A DNA stretch of 14,598 nt, taken from positions 1 through 14,598 of the forward strand of contig JAFGQA010000363.1 of NCBI GenBank assembly GCA_016935885.1, written 5' to 3'. This document shows positions 2,287-12,925 of this stretch, in pieces. Every line of letters starts with the position of its first letter. Position 1 is the stretch's first letter. Origin of the DNA: Phycisphaerae bacterium (GTDB taxonomy: Bacteria; Planctomycetota; Phycisphaerae; UBA1845; UTPLA1). The position numbers and the translations under genes were made by a program. Under the pieces are notes generated by a model. That model ran no database searches, was not told the origin of the DNA, and was given only the letters and a program-made list of their open reading frames with translations.

Positions 2287-3033
2287 TCACGCCTCGCTTA
2301 ATCCGTCTTCGGGACACAACCCCTTTGTCAGGCATCCGTTGCGCGGCCGCGAGCGATGGCTTTGCGATGAGCGCGGCTGCGGTTCGGCCAAGCCCTCGCG
2401 AATCGCAAAGAGGGCCAGCCCTACACGATCATGGATGTCGAGTGTCCTCATGAGCCGCATGGTGTGATGCTCGACGGTCTTGACGCTGATGCTCATCTGC
2501 TCGGCGATTTTCTTCTTGGACATACCGCGCGCGATGTAACGCAAGGTCTCCAGCTCGCGCGGCCGTAGCGTCGCGGCGCGGGACTTCCGGGCCGTGAGCA
2601 GCCTCGCACCGGTGGAGCCCACCACGATTCGAGACTGAACCTCCTCCGAGAAACACGCACCACCGGCGGCCACTTCAAGGATCGCCTCGACGACCCTCTC
2701 TGGAGGTTCGCGCTTCGTCAGGTATCCCCTGGCCTTCACCTTCAGCGCCTCCTCAATGTACTGATCGTGCATGAACGCGCTGAGGAAGATGATGCGGGTC
2801 TCCGGCCACATTCTTGTGATCTCACGGGCGGCATCGAAACTCACCATCCCGGGCATGTCGATGTCCATCAGGATGACGTCGGGTCTGCCCGCGAGCGTCT
2901 TGGTGATCGCCTCGTCCGCAGTGCCGGCCGTGCCGGTCACGACGAATCGCGGCTCTCGTTGCAGGCGCTCGGCCAACGCGCCTCGCACCAGTGCATGATC
3001 GTCCACGAGGAGGATCTTGATTTCACGCGCCAT
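2287..3033 (-). CDS. NarL/LuxR-family response regulator
   Basis: This is a 248-residue two-domain regulator. The receiver domain (about 5-125) has the acidic pair D11/D12, phospho-acceptor D57 (LMDIDMPG), S85 and K107. The C-terminal LuxR-type helix-turn-helix (about 155-215) is typical: LRPRELETLRYIARGMSKKK, then SVKTVEHH in the recognition helix. It should bind DNA as a dimer when phosphorylated. The ATG at 3033 is preferred over an upstream in-frame TTG (3051) because GGAAGGA lies just before the ATG. It overlaps the end of the hybrid kinase gene by 11 bases, so the pair is translationally coupled and the kinase is the probable partner. A Ser/Arg-rich tail of about 30 residues follows the DNA-binding domain and is unusual. 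Confidence 0.93.
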   Translation of the reverse strand: MAREIKILLVDDHALVRGALAERLQREPRFVVTGTAGTADEAITKTLAGRPDVILMDIDMPGMVSFDAAREITRMWPETRIIFLSAFMHDQYIEEALKVKARGYLTKREPPERVVEAILEVAAGGACFSEEVQSRIVVGSTGARLLTARKSRAATLRPRELETLRYIARGMSKKKIAEQMSISVKTVEHHTMRLMRTLDIHDRVGLALFAIREGLAEPQPRSSQSHRSRPRNGCLTKGLCPEDGLSEA

Positions 3034-6000
3034 TGTTGCTCGTCCTTCCAACCGCTGCCGGTTCCAGCAACTGAGACACCAGTGCCATCAGATCCAACAT
3101 CTGAAAGGGCTTGCGCAACAGACAGCCGCACGATGGGAGGCTGTCCGCCGTCGACGCAGGGTCGTCCACCGCGCCACGCTCCTTGCCGATCCGTGGCACC
3201 GGCATCTCGCCGGCGGGATCATAGACTCCGGCGCTCCCGGTTACGACAATGAACGGGATCTTGCCATGTCTCTGCTGGGCTTCGCCAAGGAATGAAGCGC
3301 CGTCCTTCTGGGGAAGATCGAGATCAAGAACTATCAGACGTACAACGCCCCTGTGGGCATCGAGTGTCGCCAGGGCTTCCACGCCGTCAGCCGCGGGGAG
3401 GACCTCATAGCCCCGCGAGCGGAGCGTGGAAGTGATGATCGATCGCACGTGCTCGTCGTCTTCGACCACGACGACGACCTCTCCGTTTCCGTTGCGGAAT
3501 CTGGGCTCAGATGGCTTTGGCTGCTCGGCGGCAGGGACGCAGCAAGGGAATGCCGCCGTGACGCGCGTGCCTCGACCGGACCGCGAGGACACTTCGATGT
3601 GCCCGTCCTGGTCGGTGACGATGCCGTGAATGACCGACATGCCCAGGCCGGTTCCTTGCCCGCGCGGCTTCGTGGTGAAGAACGGCTCGAAGACTCGAGA
3701 GCTGACCTCGTCCGTCATGCCGACGCCGGTATCTTCCACAACGAGCACCGCCTCGCCCGGTTGCCCGACCTCGCCCGACGGTCCTGTGCCCGTTCCGCAT
3801 AGGCGGGTGCCACTGGCAGCTTGCCTGCCAGTGCGCATGTCCCGTGCCGGCTCTTTGCGAAGCGAGATGCGCAGAACGCCGCCGTCCGGCATGGCATCAC
3901 GGGCGTTGACGGCGAGGTTCATGACCACTTGTTGGAGCTGCGTGGCGTCGGCGTTCACCCAGATCTCCGATGTGTCGGGAAGGACCTCGACCACGTCGAT
4001 GGAGGCGGGCAACACGTGTCGCAGCAAGCGAAGCGTGTCGCGGACGGTCTTGACGAAGTCCACCGGCGCCTTCTCGGCGACCTTCTTGCGGCTGAAGGTC
4101 AGCAGGGCGTTGGTGACACCACGCGCCTGCCGGGCGCTCTGTTCGACCATCTCCAAGGCCCGTGCGGCCGGATGACCGTCGGGCAACGTCGTCTTCGCGA
4201 GATCCGTGTAGCCGAAGATTGCCGTCAGCAAATTGCTGAAATCATGGGCAATGCCGCCCGCGAGGAGCCCCACCGCCTCCATCTTCTGGGCTTGTCGAAG
4301 TTGGCCTTCGAGTTTGGCCTTCTCCTTCTCGGCCTGCCTGCGAGAGGTGATGTCCCGGTTGACCGAGACCGTGCCGATCCATCCACCATCTTCAGCATTC
4401 AACTGAACGAGAAAGGCTTCACAGACGCCTTCTCTCCCATCCTTGTGTACGAAATTCACCTCGCTCGACCAGTAGCCATCTTGCTGGATACCCGTGTGAA
4501 TGCTGTCTGTAATCAGCTTGGCTTCCTCAGGTCTGTTCAGTAATTCCGGACTCTTGCCGATGACCTCTTCCTTGCAGTAGCCGAATATCTGTTCCGCGCC
4601 GGTATTCCAGTCGGCGATCCGGTCCTGTCTATCCGTGATGATCACACCGTCGTTGATGCTGTTGAAGACCAGGGCTTGCCGTCGCAACGTTGCCTCCGCG
4701 CGCTTGCGATCTGAGATATCAACCATCATGACGGAGAAGAACAGCGGGGCACCGTTGGAGTCGGTGATGAATGCGGCATCCATCAAGGTGGGGAAGACGT
4801 TGCCGTCCCGCCGCTTGTGCCAGACCTCTTCACTGACGTAACTGCCCTCGTGCCGGAGTTTGGCATTCATCCTGTCAACGTGCGACATTTGCTCTTCTGT
4901 GTGCAAAACCGATATGTGCGCACCAATCAACTCCTCGCGTGCGTAGCCGTGCATCCGGGCAAAGGCCTCGTTGACGTAGAGCAGCCTGCCGTCGAGATCA
5001 CTGATCGCATTGCCGTGGGGGGTCCTGTCAGAAATCGTCTTGAATTTTCGTAGTTCCTCTTCCGCCTTCTTGCGCGTCGTGATGTCGCGGTCGATGCCGC
5101 GGTAACCCAGGACTCTTCCGTTCCCGTCAAGTATTGGCACGCCACTCGTCTCCAGCACCACGCGTCGCCCGTTCCGGTGAATGTTGACGTTCTCCAACCC
5201 TGCAAACGGCTCTTGTGACTCGGCGCGGACCCTGAATACGCTGGCGACCCGTTTCGCCTCCTCGACAGGCATGAAATCGAAGGGGGTCTTGCCGATCACC
5301 TCCTCGGGCTCGTAACCCAACAAGTCCTTGACTTTGGGGCTGGCATAGGTATAGCGACTATCCTGATCCATTTCCCAGACCCAGTCACTGGTTGTCTCGA
5401 CCAGCGAGCGGAATTTATCCTCGCTCCTCCGCAGCGTCTCCTCCGCCTGCTTGCGTTCGGTGATGCCCCGGATGACGGCGAGCACGAACGGCTCTGTGTC
5501 AGAATGAAGGCCCGCGGAGAGGGACAACTCCACAGGGAAGACCTTGCCGTCAGCACGCAACGCAGGGAGTTCGAGTGTCTTGCCGATCGCGCCGCGCAGT
5601 CCGCCCCTCGTGAAAAAGCCCTTTACGTAGCGCGCGTGGCGCTGCTGATACCCTTCGGGCATCAGACAGTCGAGCGGCTGGCCGATCATCCGCTCCTTCG
5701 CCTGACCGAACATCGTCTCGGCCGCGGGATTGAACAGCCTAACCAATCCGTCTTTGTCGATCGCGATCATCGCATCCTTGCTCGCATCCACGACCGTTCG
5801 GAACAGTACCTCGCTCTCGCTCAACGCCTCCTCGGCCCGCTTCTGCTCGGTGATGTCGATCCAATAGCCGACAATCTCACGCGGGCTGCCATCTGCGGCA
5901 CGCACCAGTCGCATTTCGTCGCGCATCCATACACAGGTGCCATCTTGATGACGAAAGCGGTATTCATGTAGGTGATGCCCGTGCTCGAACAGGCGCGGCA

Positions 6001-7204
6001 ACTCGGAGAAGACCCGTGGCGCATCCTCCGGGTGAATATGATCAGCCCAGAAGCTGGGCCCGTCCGTGAATTCCTGCACCCCATAGCCGAGCAGTGCTTC
6101 GACATTCTCGCTGATGAACGTGGCCGGGTAAGCGCCCGCCGGCTCGCAGGTATAGATCACTGCCGGGCTGGTGGTAAGGAGAAACGATAGTCGTGCCTCG
6201 CTCTTCCGCAGCGCCTCCTCGGCCCGCTTGCTCTCGGTGATGTCCCGGCCTACCGACTGATACTCGGCGATCTGGCCGTTGTCATCGAAGACTGCCCGGT
6301 CGGTCCACTGGTGCCAGCGGATCTGGCCGTTCTTCGCGATAACGCGGTGTTCATGGCTGGCAATAGGGTTCTCACGGCTGAGCGAATCGAAATGCTCCTG
6401 CACCTTTCCGTGTTCCTCCTCGGGGATGAGCGCCATGAGGCTACTGCCGAGGAGTTCCTCGCTGTCCTTGCCAAAGCAGCGGCAGTAGGCATTATTCACG
6501 AACGTGTGTACCCCACCCGGCAGCCAGCGGCAGATCAACTCCGTTTGATCCTCCACGATTGCGCGGTAGCGGTGCTCGCTCTCCTTCATCGCCTCTTCGG
6601 CGCGCCTGCGCTCGCGGACCTCCTCCACGAGACGCCTGTTGGCGGCCAACAGGTCACGAGTCCGCTTCTCCACCCGTGCTTCCAATTCGTCGCGGGCCTT
6701 TCGCAGCGCATCCTCCGCACGCTTGTACGCCGTGATGTCTCGCGAGATGCCAACGATTCCCACGACTTGCCCAGATGTGTTCCGGATCGGAGCCTTTGTA
6801 GTCGAGAACCAGCGCGGCTCGGTGCCGTCCGGCCCGGCCTGCTCAACCTTCGCGATCATCGGCTCGCCGCTGTTGATGAGGTGCTGCTCGTCTGCAAGGA
6901 ACTCGTCAGCCATTTCCGCCGGGTAGAAGTCCGCATCCCGCTTCCCGACCACCTTGCTGGGGCCATCGACGCCGTAGAAACGCGCCAGGGCAGGATTGAC
7001 CCGCGTGAACCGGCTCTCACGATCCTTGAAGTAGATGTTGTCCGGGATGTTCTCCATCAATAGCCGCAGGAACTGTCGCTCTCGCCGCAGTGCCTCCTCT
7101 GCCCGCATGCAATTGCGATGCTCGGATTCAAGAGCCGCCAGGCGTGCTCGCAACGCCTCGTTCTCGTCACGAAGCCGAGCCTCACCATTGTCAGACTCGC
7201 TCAA
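3023..7204 (-). CDS. Seven-PAS hybrid sensor histidine kinase
   Basis: The protein has 1393 residues and no membrane segment, so it should be a cytosolic sensor. An N-terminal coiled coil (1-45) is followed by PAS domains at about 48-160, 212-325, 338-455, 467-583, 597-712, 722-833 and 845-953, joined by repeated KRAEEAL-type linkers; a longer coiled coil lies at 160-210. Then come a HisKA dimerisation domain with H987 (GGIAHDFSN), a HATPase domain (N1100; DTGVGM at 1158-1163; GTGLGM at 1184-1189) and a C-terminal receiver (D1249/D1250, D1294, T1322, K1365). The start is TTG with AAGGAG six bases upstream. Two segments, about 1120-1147 in the ATPase domain and 1326-1350 in the receiver, look like insertions, and each is encoded by a hairpin repeat. 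Phosphotransfer to the overlapping regulator gene is likely. No HPt domain is present. Confidence 0.93.
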   Translation of the reverse strand: MSESDNGEARLRDENEALRARLAALESEHRNCMRAEEALRRERQFLRLLMENIPDNIYFKDRESRFTRVNPALARFYGVDGPSKVVGKRDADFYPAEMADEFLADEQHLINSGEPMIAKVEQAGPDGTEPRWFSTTKAPIRNTSGQVVGIVGISRDITAYKRAEDALRKARDELEARVEKRTRDLLAANRRLVEEVRERRRAEEAMKESEHRYRAIVEDQTELICRWLPGGVHTFVNNAYCRCFGKDSEELLGSSLMALIPEEEHGKVQEHFDSLSRENPIASHEHRVIAKNGQIRWHQWTDRAVFDDNGQIAEYQSVGRDITESKRAEEALRKSEARLSFLLTTSPAVIYTCEPAGAYPATFISENVEALLGYGVQEFTDGPSFWADHIHPEDAPRVFSELPRLFEHGHHLHEYRFRHQDGTCVWMRDEMRLVRAADGSPREIVGYWIDITEQKRAEEALSESEVLFRTVVDASKDAMIAIDKDGLVRLFNPAAETMFGQAKERMIGQPLDCLMPEGYQQRHARYVKGFFTRGGLRGAIGKTLELPALRADGKVFPVELSLSAGLHSDTEPFVLAVIRGITERKQAEETLRRSEDKFRSLVETTSDWVWEMDQDSRYTYASPKVKDLLGYEPEEVIGKTPFDFMPVEEAKRVASVFRVRAESQEPFAGLENVNIHRNGRRVVLETSGVPILDGNGRVLGYRGIDRDITTRKKAEEELRKFKTISDRTPHGNAISDLDGRLLYVNEAFARMHGYAREELIGAHISVLHTEEQMSHVDRMNAKLRHEGSYVSEEVWHKRRDGNVFPTLMDAAFITDSNGAPLFFSVMMVDISDRKRAEATLRRQALVFNSINDGVIITDRQDRIADWNTGAEQIFGYCKEEVIGKSPELLNRPEEAKLITDSIHTGIQQDGYWSSEVNFVHKDGREGVCEAFLVQLNAEDGGWIGTVSVNRDITSRRQAEKEKAKLEGQLRQAQKMEAVGLLAGGIAHDFSNLLTAIFGYTDLAKTTLPDGHPAARALEMVEQSARQARGVTNALLTFSRKKVAEKAPVDFVKTVRDTLRLLRHVLPASIDVVEVLPDTSEIWVNADATQLQQVVMNLAVNARDAMPDGGVLRISLRKEPARDMRTGRQAASGTRLCGTGTGPSGEVGQPGEAVLVVEDTGVGMTDEVSSRVFEPFFTTKPRGQGTGLGMSVIHGIVTDQDGHIEVSSRSGRGTRVTAAFPCCVPAAEQPKPSEPRFRNGNGEVVVVVEDDEHVRSIITSTLRSRGYEVLPAADGVEALATLDAHRGVVRLIVLDLDLPQKDGASFLGEAQQRHGKIPFIVVTGSAGVYDPAGEMPVPRIGKERGAVDDPASTADSLPSCGCLLRKPFQMLDLMALVSQLLEPAAVGRTSNNGA
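3193..3215. repeat. Hairpin repeat inside the kinase receiver domain
   Basis: GTGGCAC (3193-3199) leads into CACCGGC (3197-3203), a 5-base loop, and GCCGGCG (3209-3215), which pairs except at the last-but-one position. It is the reverse orientation of the subtype at 85-107 and 11274-11297. It encodes kinase residues about 1330-1338, between T1322 and K1365 of the receiver. Those residues are about 43 apart rather than the roughly 20 usual in CheY-like domains. Confidence 0.55.
3811..3833. repeat. Hairpin repeat inside the kinase ATPase domain
   Basis: CACTGGCAG (3811-3819) and CTGCCAGTG (3825-3833) form a perfect 9-bp stem with a 5-base loop, and GTGCCAC (3807-3813) lies at the left edge. 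It belongs with the second hairpin of the elements at 796-868 and 12874-12925. In the kinase frame it encodes TGRQAASG (about residues 1125-1132), within a Gly/Thr-rich stretch between the N box and the G1 box that has no obvious family counterpart. The frame is kept open. Confidence 0.75.
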
Positions 7205-7555
7205 GGCGCTCTCCTTCTACTCTCAAGGGTCGGTCATCTTCTTCGTTGGGAACCATCCTCTAATCACGCCGATGGGACAACGACGCGCACGTGCTCGGCC
7301 GAAGCTCGCCCGCGATTGCGCCCTGCCCCCCGCGAACCAGCGGCCTTGCCACAACAGCATCCTTCCTATGGCGGCGGCCATGATACCAGCGCTGCTGTGC
7401 GGGCCAGGCCGTGCTCCGGGACCGGGACTGTTGTGCCGTTCCTACCGCCCAATGGCCAGAACAGAGACATTGTATGGTAACAAATTGCAGTGTCTTTGGG
7501 CAAGGCGCCGCGCCGACGCAGGGTCCGTGACACTTCCGGCGGCATTCGACTCTGT

Positions 7556-7640
7556 GTGCCACGGGCGGCCTGTCCGCCCGTCCGGTCTCTCCGGTGGGCG
7601 CATGGGGCACACACACTGGCAGGCAGGCTGCCACTGGCAC
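7556..7640. repeat. Degenerate paired-hairpin repeat
   Basis: GTGCCAC (7556-7562) opens the element. The first hairpin is CGGGCGG (7562-7568) with CCGCCCG (7574-7580). The second, CACTGGCAG (7614-7622) with 7628-7636, has one mismatch. TGGCAC closes the element at 7640. The plan is that of 796-868, with a slightly longer spacer between the hairpins, and it is in the same orientation. Confidence 0.65.
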
Positions 7641-7715
7641 GCCTAGACTGTCACAGACCCGACGCGGCAGGTGTAGGTCACGATTGTAGGTGGATTCTAA
7701 TGGCGGCCAGGGGCC

Positions 7716-7955
7716 GCTGGTGCGAGAGTCCTTCCCGCTGGTGCGAGAATCCTTCCCGCTGGTGCGAGAATCCTTTCTCGCACCCACTTCCGGCGGAAAT
7801 CTTCTCTCACACTTCGACACGAGGAACCGAGAAGGGATTCTCGGCCCAGCTTCGTCCCGCTGGTGCGAGATTCCTTCTCGCACCCACTTCCGGCGGAAAT
7901 CTTCTCTCACACTTCGACACGAGGAACCGAGAAGGGATTCTCGGCCCAGCTTCGT
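7716..7955. repeat. Nested tandem repeat: 21-bp units, then two 100-bp units
   Basis: Three copies of a 21-bp unit (GCTGGTGCGAGAATCCTTCC-like) start at 7716, 7737 and 7758. The third leads into a unit of about 100 bp that is duplicated: 7775-7855 and 7875-7955 are identical over 81 bases. Each 100-bp unit has two hairpins. X is GGTGCGAGAA (7761-7770) with TTCTCGCACC (7775-7784); its second copy is a 9-bp stem at 7862-7870 and 7876-7884. Y is CCGAGAA (7827-7833) with TTCTCGG (7838-7844), copied at 7927-7944. The 21-bp units supply extra left arms of X. No coding role is evident. Confidence 0.85.
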
Positions 7956-8149
7956 CTTTGCCTACGGAGCTCACGTACACCCGACGCAGCGGATGCGCCG
8001 AGCAGCACATTTCGCCCGTCGCCGCTCTCACTGCTTCCCGGAACACCCAAACGGCGGATCGCGGCCGCAAGCGGTTTCAAAGGTAGCACCCCACCGAATC
8101 GCCGAGCGCTATCGGCTTACCGGCCGACCGAACGGGACGATGCCCCGGA

Positions 8150-12832: not shown

Positions 12833-12873
12833 TGACTGACGACCGACAACTGAGTGACTATCTTAAAGTGGGC

Positions 12874-12925
12874 GTCACGGGCAGCTTGTCTGCCCGTGCA
12901 CTGGCGGACGAGCCGCCAGTGGCAC
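12874..12925. repeat. Compact paired-hairpin repeat
   Basis: CACGGGCAG (12876-12884) with CTGCCCGTG (12890-12898) abuts CACTGGCGG (12899-12907) with CCGCCAGTG (12913-12921), and the element closes with GTGGCAC (12919-12925). The arms are identical to those at 796-868, but the 19-base spacer between the hairpins is missing. It fills most of the gap between the Mpo1-like gene and the methyltransferase gene, where it could end or shield transcripts. Confidence 0.8.

Follow-up and report, generated by a model that had tools for sequence, protein, structure and literature searches.

The stretch of DNA analysed here, referred to as the window, comprises 14,598 nucleotides of contig JAFGQA010000363.1 from a Phycisphaerae bacterium (assembly GCA_016935885.1). 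Its minus strand encodes, from 3023 to 7204, a PAS-rich hybrid histidine kinase of 1393 aa, an open reading frame (ORF) in which Pfam and NCBIfam recognised PAS repeats and HisKA, HATPase_c and receiver domains. Inside this gene, at 3807 to 3833, pattern matching, folding and translation identified a single hairpin resembling the repetitive extragenic palindromes (REPs) of other bacteria. Read on the plus strand, it consists of GTGC followed by CACTGGCAG-CTTGC-CTGCCAGTG, whose arms pair without mismatch over 9 bp and enclose a loop of 5 nt. The hairpin lies in frame where the original prediction, made from the sequence alone, had placed it, and its minus-strand reading encodes residues 1124-1133 of the kinase, RTGRQAASGT. 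As single-stranded DNA, the 36 nt around it fold with energies of -12.7 and -13.2 kcal/mol (z-scores of -2.4 and -3.0), and on either strand 2 of 200 shuffles folded as well. A possible target-site duplication, GCAT at 3797-3800 and 3835-3838, was rejected, as its starts lie 38 nt apart, which is no multiple of three, and the insertion would therefore be out of frame.

The hairpin repeat family

The kinase copy is a solitary unit with no inverted partner. The remaining units of the window, all detected by pattern match, form three intergenic inverted pairs spanning 796-868, 7556-7640 and 12872-12925, each with its first unit on the plus strand (796 to 822, 7556 to 7582 and 12872 to 12898) and its second on the minus strand (842 to 868, 7614 to 7640 and 12899 to 12925). 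The kinase segment had been described as a perfect copy of these intergenic hairpins; the palindrome is indeed perfect, but the unit differs from the six others at 2 to 7 of 27 positions, the closest being that at 7614 to 7640, with 2 differences. In the equivalent frame the intergenic copies do give a similar peptide, as had been stated: HTGRQAARGTR in ORF 612-881 and TGGQAARGT in ORF 7366-7614, both on the minus strand. Upstream of the kinase the window holds another repeat cluster (7712-7956), with inverted arms; it contains direct repeats of 27 nt and, 100 nt from each other, two copies of an 87-nt block.

The nearest genome used for comparison, G001, is that of Phycisphaerae bacterium (CSMAG_386). 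The strict family pattern has 166 matches in this genome and is positive in 12 of 198 genomes searched within the class, while the reversed pattern, used as a control, has no match in any of the 198. At up to 2 mismatches, 253 copies of the 27-nt unit were counted in G001, against none for the reversed control in 5.2 Mb. Together with the folding z-scores, the 166 strict matches against a control of zero establish that the likeness of the kinase segment to the dispersed hairpin is no chance product. The family hallmarks are a conserved 5' GTGC, a 9-bp stem, a mostly 5-nt loop and frequent inverted pairs. Copies were studied in 120 loci from eight genomes (designated L, and the genomes G), which were the first-listed places of each genome, with copies at contig ends mostly left out. 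These loci hold 140 copy groups: 69 inverted pairs, 67 singles and 4 others, although some of the singles, such as that of L179, are in fact pairs because the ungapped pattern misses units with shorter loops. The exact kinase 27-mer occurs 26 times in the 57 loci of G001 and twice in the 8 of G071, and was absent from the remaining 55 loci, which come from six further genomes. Three G001 contigs (L186, L190 and L202) break off no more than about 35 nt from a repeat pair; the repeat thus breaks the assemblies of this genome, and copy numbers may be underestimates.

Across 54 distinct variants the GTGC that precedes the stem on its 5' side hardly varies. The stem itself shows compensatory changes: one pair goes from T-A to G-C, another from G-C to A-T. 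Double-changed cells number 27 against 7.8 in shuffles, with none of 500 shuffles as high, under a search pattern that let the compensating positions vary independently of each other. No stop codon occurs in any frame of the nine variants seen at least 5 times; stops are present in 10 of 51 variants. The 25-nt core of the hairpin has no exact match in the IMG/VR viral collection, and a literature search with six 23-nt spellings of the stem-loop found no report of the sequence. The kinase segment is very probably a unit of a REP/REPIN-type mobile palindrome of Phycisphaerae that was inserted in frame, and the derivation from a dispersed hairpin repeat proposed by the original prediction is supported. 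In the relatives, the kinase loci lack the hairpin at up to 4 mismatches (20 of 20).

In-frame hairpins in other genes

The family lies mostly outside genes. As a lower bound, 8 of the 140 copy groups are located within ORFs of recognised families, in six genes: a GT9 heptosyltransferase (L179), where the hairpin sits between two matched halves; MnmG (L250, G072); Mfd (L239); alanyl-tRNA synthetase (AlaRS; L245, G071); a class II ribonucleotide reductase (L232, G083), which holds three hairpin groups; and a mannosyltransferase-like membrane protein of the PMT_2 type (L283). Long frames over hairpins are often shadow frames of neighbouring genes, and only frames of recognised families were counted. 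The count excludes L167 (Vut_1) and L276 (Lnt), in which the hairpin precedes the domain and could be part of a 5' leader, as well as frames with no Pfam family in L182, L205, L210, L252 and L271 and both frames of L238, the last locus having one further group in an open frame. The MnmG stretch that runs from LKRPDV to GFIDRH measures 90 residues in G072 versus 23 to 61 in 23 aligned relatives, a 24th (L370) having no residues in the compared stretch. The alignment of MnmG to a solved structure breaks off on either side of the hairpin, and those of AlaRS and Mfd do not span it; by themselves, these alignments show no insertion. The reductase linkers (L232, 2146-5853) also hold several CATAVSAV-type repeats, apparently of another repeat family.

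The host genes read the hairpin in all six frames: on one strand as GATGG.. (L250, L239 and L232), VPLA.. (L179, a unit with a shortened loop on which this frame rests) and CHGRL.. (L283), and on the other as HWRTS.. (L250), TGRQA.. (the window) and ALAGK.. (L245). Use of all six frames indicates that DNA, not a peptide, was spread. It is the pattern expected of self-spreading DNA under later filtering, and evidence against an ancient peptide motif common to these proteins.

One in-gene site is common to several genomes. The AlaRS hairpin occupies the same in-frame position in G071, G230, G006 and G229 (L245, L337, L346 and L341), with 0, 0, 0 and 1 mismatches to the pattern, while outside the hairpin the four proteins are 55-75% identical. 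AlaRS orthologues, like those of the kinase, were taken by tblastn, and L343, L356, L366 and L370 were short or empty in the compared stretch. Within the hairpin, the stem is the same throughout and 9 of 9 third codon positions agree in all six genome pairs; elsewhere in AlaRS, third positions of shared residues agree at 45, 48, 50, 51 and 56% in five pairs and at 74% in the closest. The chance of 9 of 9 is 0.0007 to 0.005 for each of the five distant pairs and 0.07 for the closest, figures that concern one site, noticed after the fact, and pairs that are not independent. Possible causes of this identity are selection at the level of structure, homogenisation from other copies or repeated insertion.

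The AlaRS site argues for the proposal that in-gene hairpins are not merely tolerated but are kept by selection for the structure that they form in DNA or RNA, with roles, for instance, in stabilising mRNA, pausing translation or organising the chromosome. The same picture would, though, result from conversion with other copies or from insertions recurring at one site, and in-gene copies are rare among the sampled groups; given also that the observation is single, post hoc and drawn from non-independent pairs, we regard such selection as decidedly unlikely. A broader proposition holds that in this clade a hairpin, once lodged in a loop, is kept intact for long periods, either by nucleic-acid-structure selection or by ongoing homogenisation, such that a transposase-made repeat would keep rewriting the loops of housekeeping proteins, the kinase included. 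This we put forward as an unlikely but conceivable extension of the insertion reading.

The kinase loop and its homologues

The HATPase_c domain of the kinase (residues 1086-1220, encoded at 3545 to 3949 on the minus strand) is recognised by PF02518 with 68.8 bits and an E value of 6.6e-19, and fold matches were found to this region too. In an AlphaFold2 model of a fragment (fragment residue = kinase residue - 959), strands at 150-159 and 192-199 are separated by blocks with predicted local distance difference test (pLDDT) scores of 48-64, corresponding to a predicted disordered loop at residues 1119-1150 (3755 to 3850, minus strand). According to the model, the hairpin-bearing loop is a disordered, length-variable connector that leads from the strand after the N box to the strand toward the D (G1) box. 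The original prediction of a new loop near the ATP lid fits the model as regards the loop but not its position: the ATP lid of histidine kinases lies after the D box, and the segment precedes it. Residues H987, N1100, D1158, G1160, G1162, G1184, G1186 and G1188, among them those of the N, D (G1) and G2 boxes, are invariant in 14 aligned proteins including the window kinase, in keeping with the earlier statement that the catalytic motifs remain.

Between NLAVNARD and GVGM the window kinase has 68 residues, the modal homologue 53, and the range over 120 proteins is 38-68. The excess is thus about 15 residues over the modal homologue and not about 27, as first estimated; over the syntenic orthologue, with 58 residues, it is 10. 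This orthologue lies in L001 of G001, where the gene order PrkA-kinase-response regulator-epimerase of the window is kept. The PrkA proteins are 88% identical, and the kinases 52.7% over the last 434 residues and 58% and 61% over matched stretches. The L001 kinase has no hairpin in its loop. At 6866-6890 of L001 the same loop contains a different repeat, GGGTCAGGGTCCAGGGTTCAGGGTC, for which G001 has 8 places when up to 3 mismatches are allowed.

In the orthologue alignment that had been suggested as a check, the segment-type peptide and the hairpin are missing from relatives, and no orthologue of a distant genus was seen to carry the same segment with unrelated codons. A TGRQA-type peptide is absent from the loop of the other 119 homologues listed, except for TGSLP in P0024, whose segment is of modal length and in which the 5-mer is probably due to chance. 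Hairpin-derived 5-mers scattered outside the loop in P0034, P0037, P0050, P0096, P0105 and P0118, among the 120 proteins, are likewise taken as chance.

An insertion within an ATPase domain might disable the kinase and leave the gene on its way to becoming a pseudogene; a stretch of unusual length in the receiver domain would fit with this. Such decay seems very unlikely in view of the 1393 open codons, the retention of the catalytic residues checked, the HATPase_c score, the modelled position of the segment in a loop and the gene neighbourhood conserved in L001. Judged from its sequence, the enzyme is likely still working, and the insertion, as modelled, probably leaves catalysis intact while making a disordered loop of the ATPase domain longer. 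The receiver stretch (window 3104-3241) comprises 46 residues from TGS to LLRKPF (1322-1367) versus a mode of 23 in 67 proteins collected by a simple motif search that included false matches; it is possibly a second insertion, with no recognised hairpin. That the segment is an ordinary lineage-specific loop, its palindrome and repeat likeness being coincidence or codon convergence, finds some encouragement in a loop so variable that it reaches 71 residues in a hairpin-free relative, but is scarcely credible against a 27-of-27 match to the 26 sampled G001 copies, the empty reversed control in 5.2 Mb and a six-frame usage unlike that of a protein motif.

A candidate transposase and comparison with known palindromes

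The machinery that moves the hairpin is suggested by two relatives. In G072 (C31), a gene for a REP-associated tyrosine transposase (RAYT) has the family hairpin on both sides; its product passes the NCBIfam model NF047646 (REP-associated tyrosine transposase) narrowly, with 80.8 bits against a cut-off of 80. In G059 (C53), a RAYT 58% identical to it again has the hairpin on both sides, 6 to 38 nt from the matched stretch. When the RAYT loci were shuffled as a control, no hairpin match was found in 96 kb. A related RAYT-type gene of G083 (L229, 2599-3433) is in two pieces, and is both flanked and interrupted by the hairpin. Two further RAYT genes are flanked on either side by hairpins of another kind, GGCACTGACAAGC.. 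in G072 (L313, 1420-2105) and CACGGCCGG.. in G057 (L291, 59-877); this search for any strong hairpin covered 7 of 30 RAYT-query loci, and suggests that there is one hairpin per RAYT type.

For an insertion of this kind, the RAYT, an HUH tyrosine transposase, would move the hairpin as single-stranded DNA. Most insertions into genes would be purged, with the survivors lying in loops or linkers. Because the common variants are free of stops in all six frames, survival would mainly require that the length fit. In the kinase, the hairpin would extend the disordered loop of the ATPase domain.

Several observations weigh against reading the kinase segment as such a mobile unit. All 20 genomes tried have matches to Y1_Tnp, whether or not they carry the hairpin, so that their presence alone says nothing about hairpin machinery. 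The hairpin stands beside the gene in only 2 of the 30 RAYT-query loci, those of G072 and G059; in another of the 30 (L301) two hairpin copies lie ~600 nt away, and among 12 earlier Y1_Tnp loci a single one (L154) has a hairpin, at ~940 nt. G001, with its 253 hairpins, yielded no close RAYT in what is a fragmented assembly, the best match (E 4.1e-10, 30% identity) containing an internal stop. The evidence from copy number and from the RAYT comes from relatives and not from the window's own genome. One of the 20 kinase loci combines the absence of a hairpin with the 71-residue loop, and loop length alone therefore proves nothing. Finally, there is no clean empty site for the kinase insertion among the homologues found; the exact site cannot be drawn because the nearest of these are only ~60% identical and the loop is hypervariable.

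For annotation, these results are a warning: in proteins from this group, peptides of the TGRQAA-, GATGGLPAS- or ALAGKPPVAP-type may derive from the repeat. They also make it measurable how frequently mobile palindromes extend protein loops, and whether a hairpin is maintained as such.

As described in the account of Di Nocera et al. 2013 (PMC3733652), REPs are short, high-copy palindromes, single or dimeric and mostly intergenic, with REP-flanked RAYT genes. Some are contained entirely in ORFs, among them genes for DNA repair, tRNA synthetases and tRNA pseudouridine synthase, and the same account reports families from Planctomycetes and from the verrucomicrobium O. terrae as well. The hairpin family resembles these REP/RAYT systems (REPtrons) in copy number, pairs, intragenic copies and RAYT flanks, the last seen in relatives only. 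Two large REP superfamilies in that account end in GTAG or CGTC, whereas the present family has neither end and a conserved GTGC beside the stem. Hairpins on both sides of the gene, as for the RAYT genes of G072 and G059, are likewise a feature of the TnpA(REP)/RAYT HUH endonucleases as portrayed in PMC6006769. The Rickettsia palindromic elements (RPEs) of Ogata et al. 2000/2002, in the description given in PMC10969869, are ~150 bp long and encode a conserved peptide. Like them, the hairpin is a palindromic repeat lying in frame in unrelated protein genes; unlike them, its unit is 27 bp, and it encodes no common peptide, being read in six frames (window, L250, L239, L245, L179 and L283). Palindromes lying in frame in genes have thus been described before, for several bacteria in PMC3733652 and for Rickettsia in PMC10969869. 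Set beside the REPs of PMC3733652, those described here differ in having Phycisphaerae as hosts and one in-gene site common to four genomes; what is added is a further REP family together with its candidate cognate RAYT, a number of enzymes that can be recognised as in-frame targets, and a target that several species have in common.
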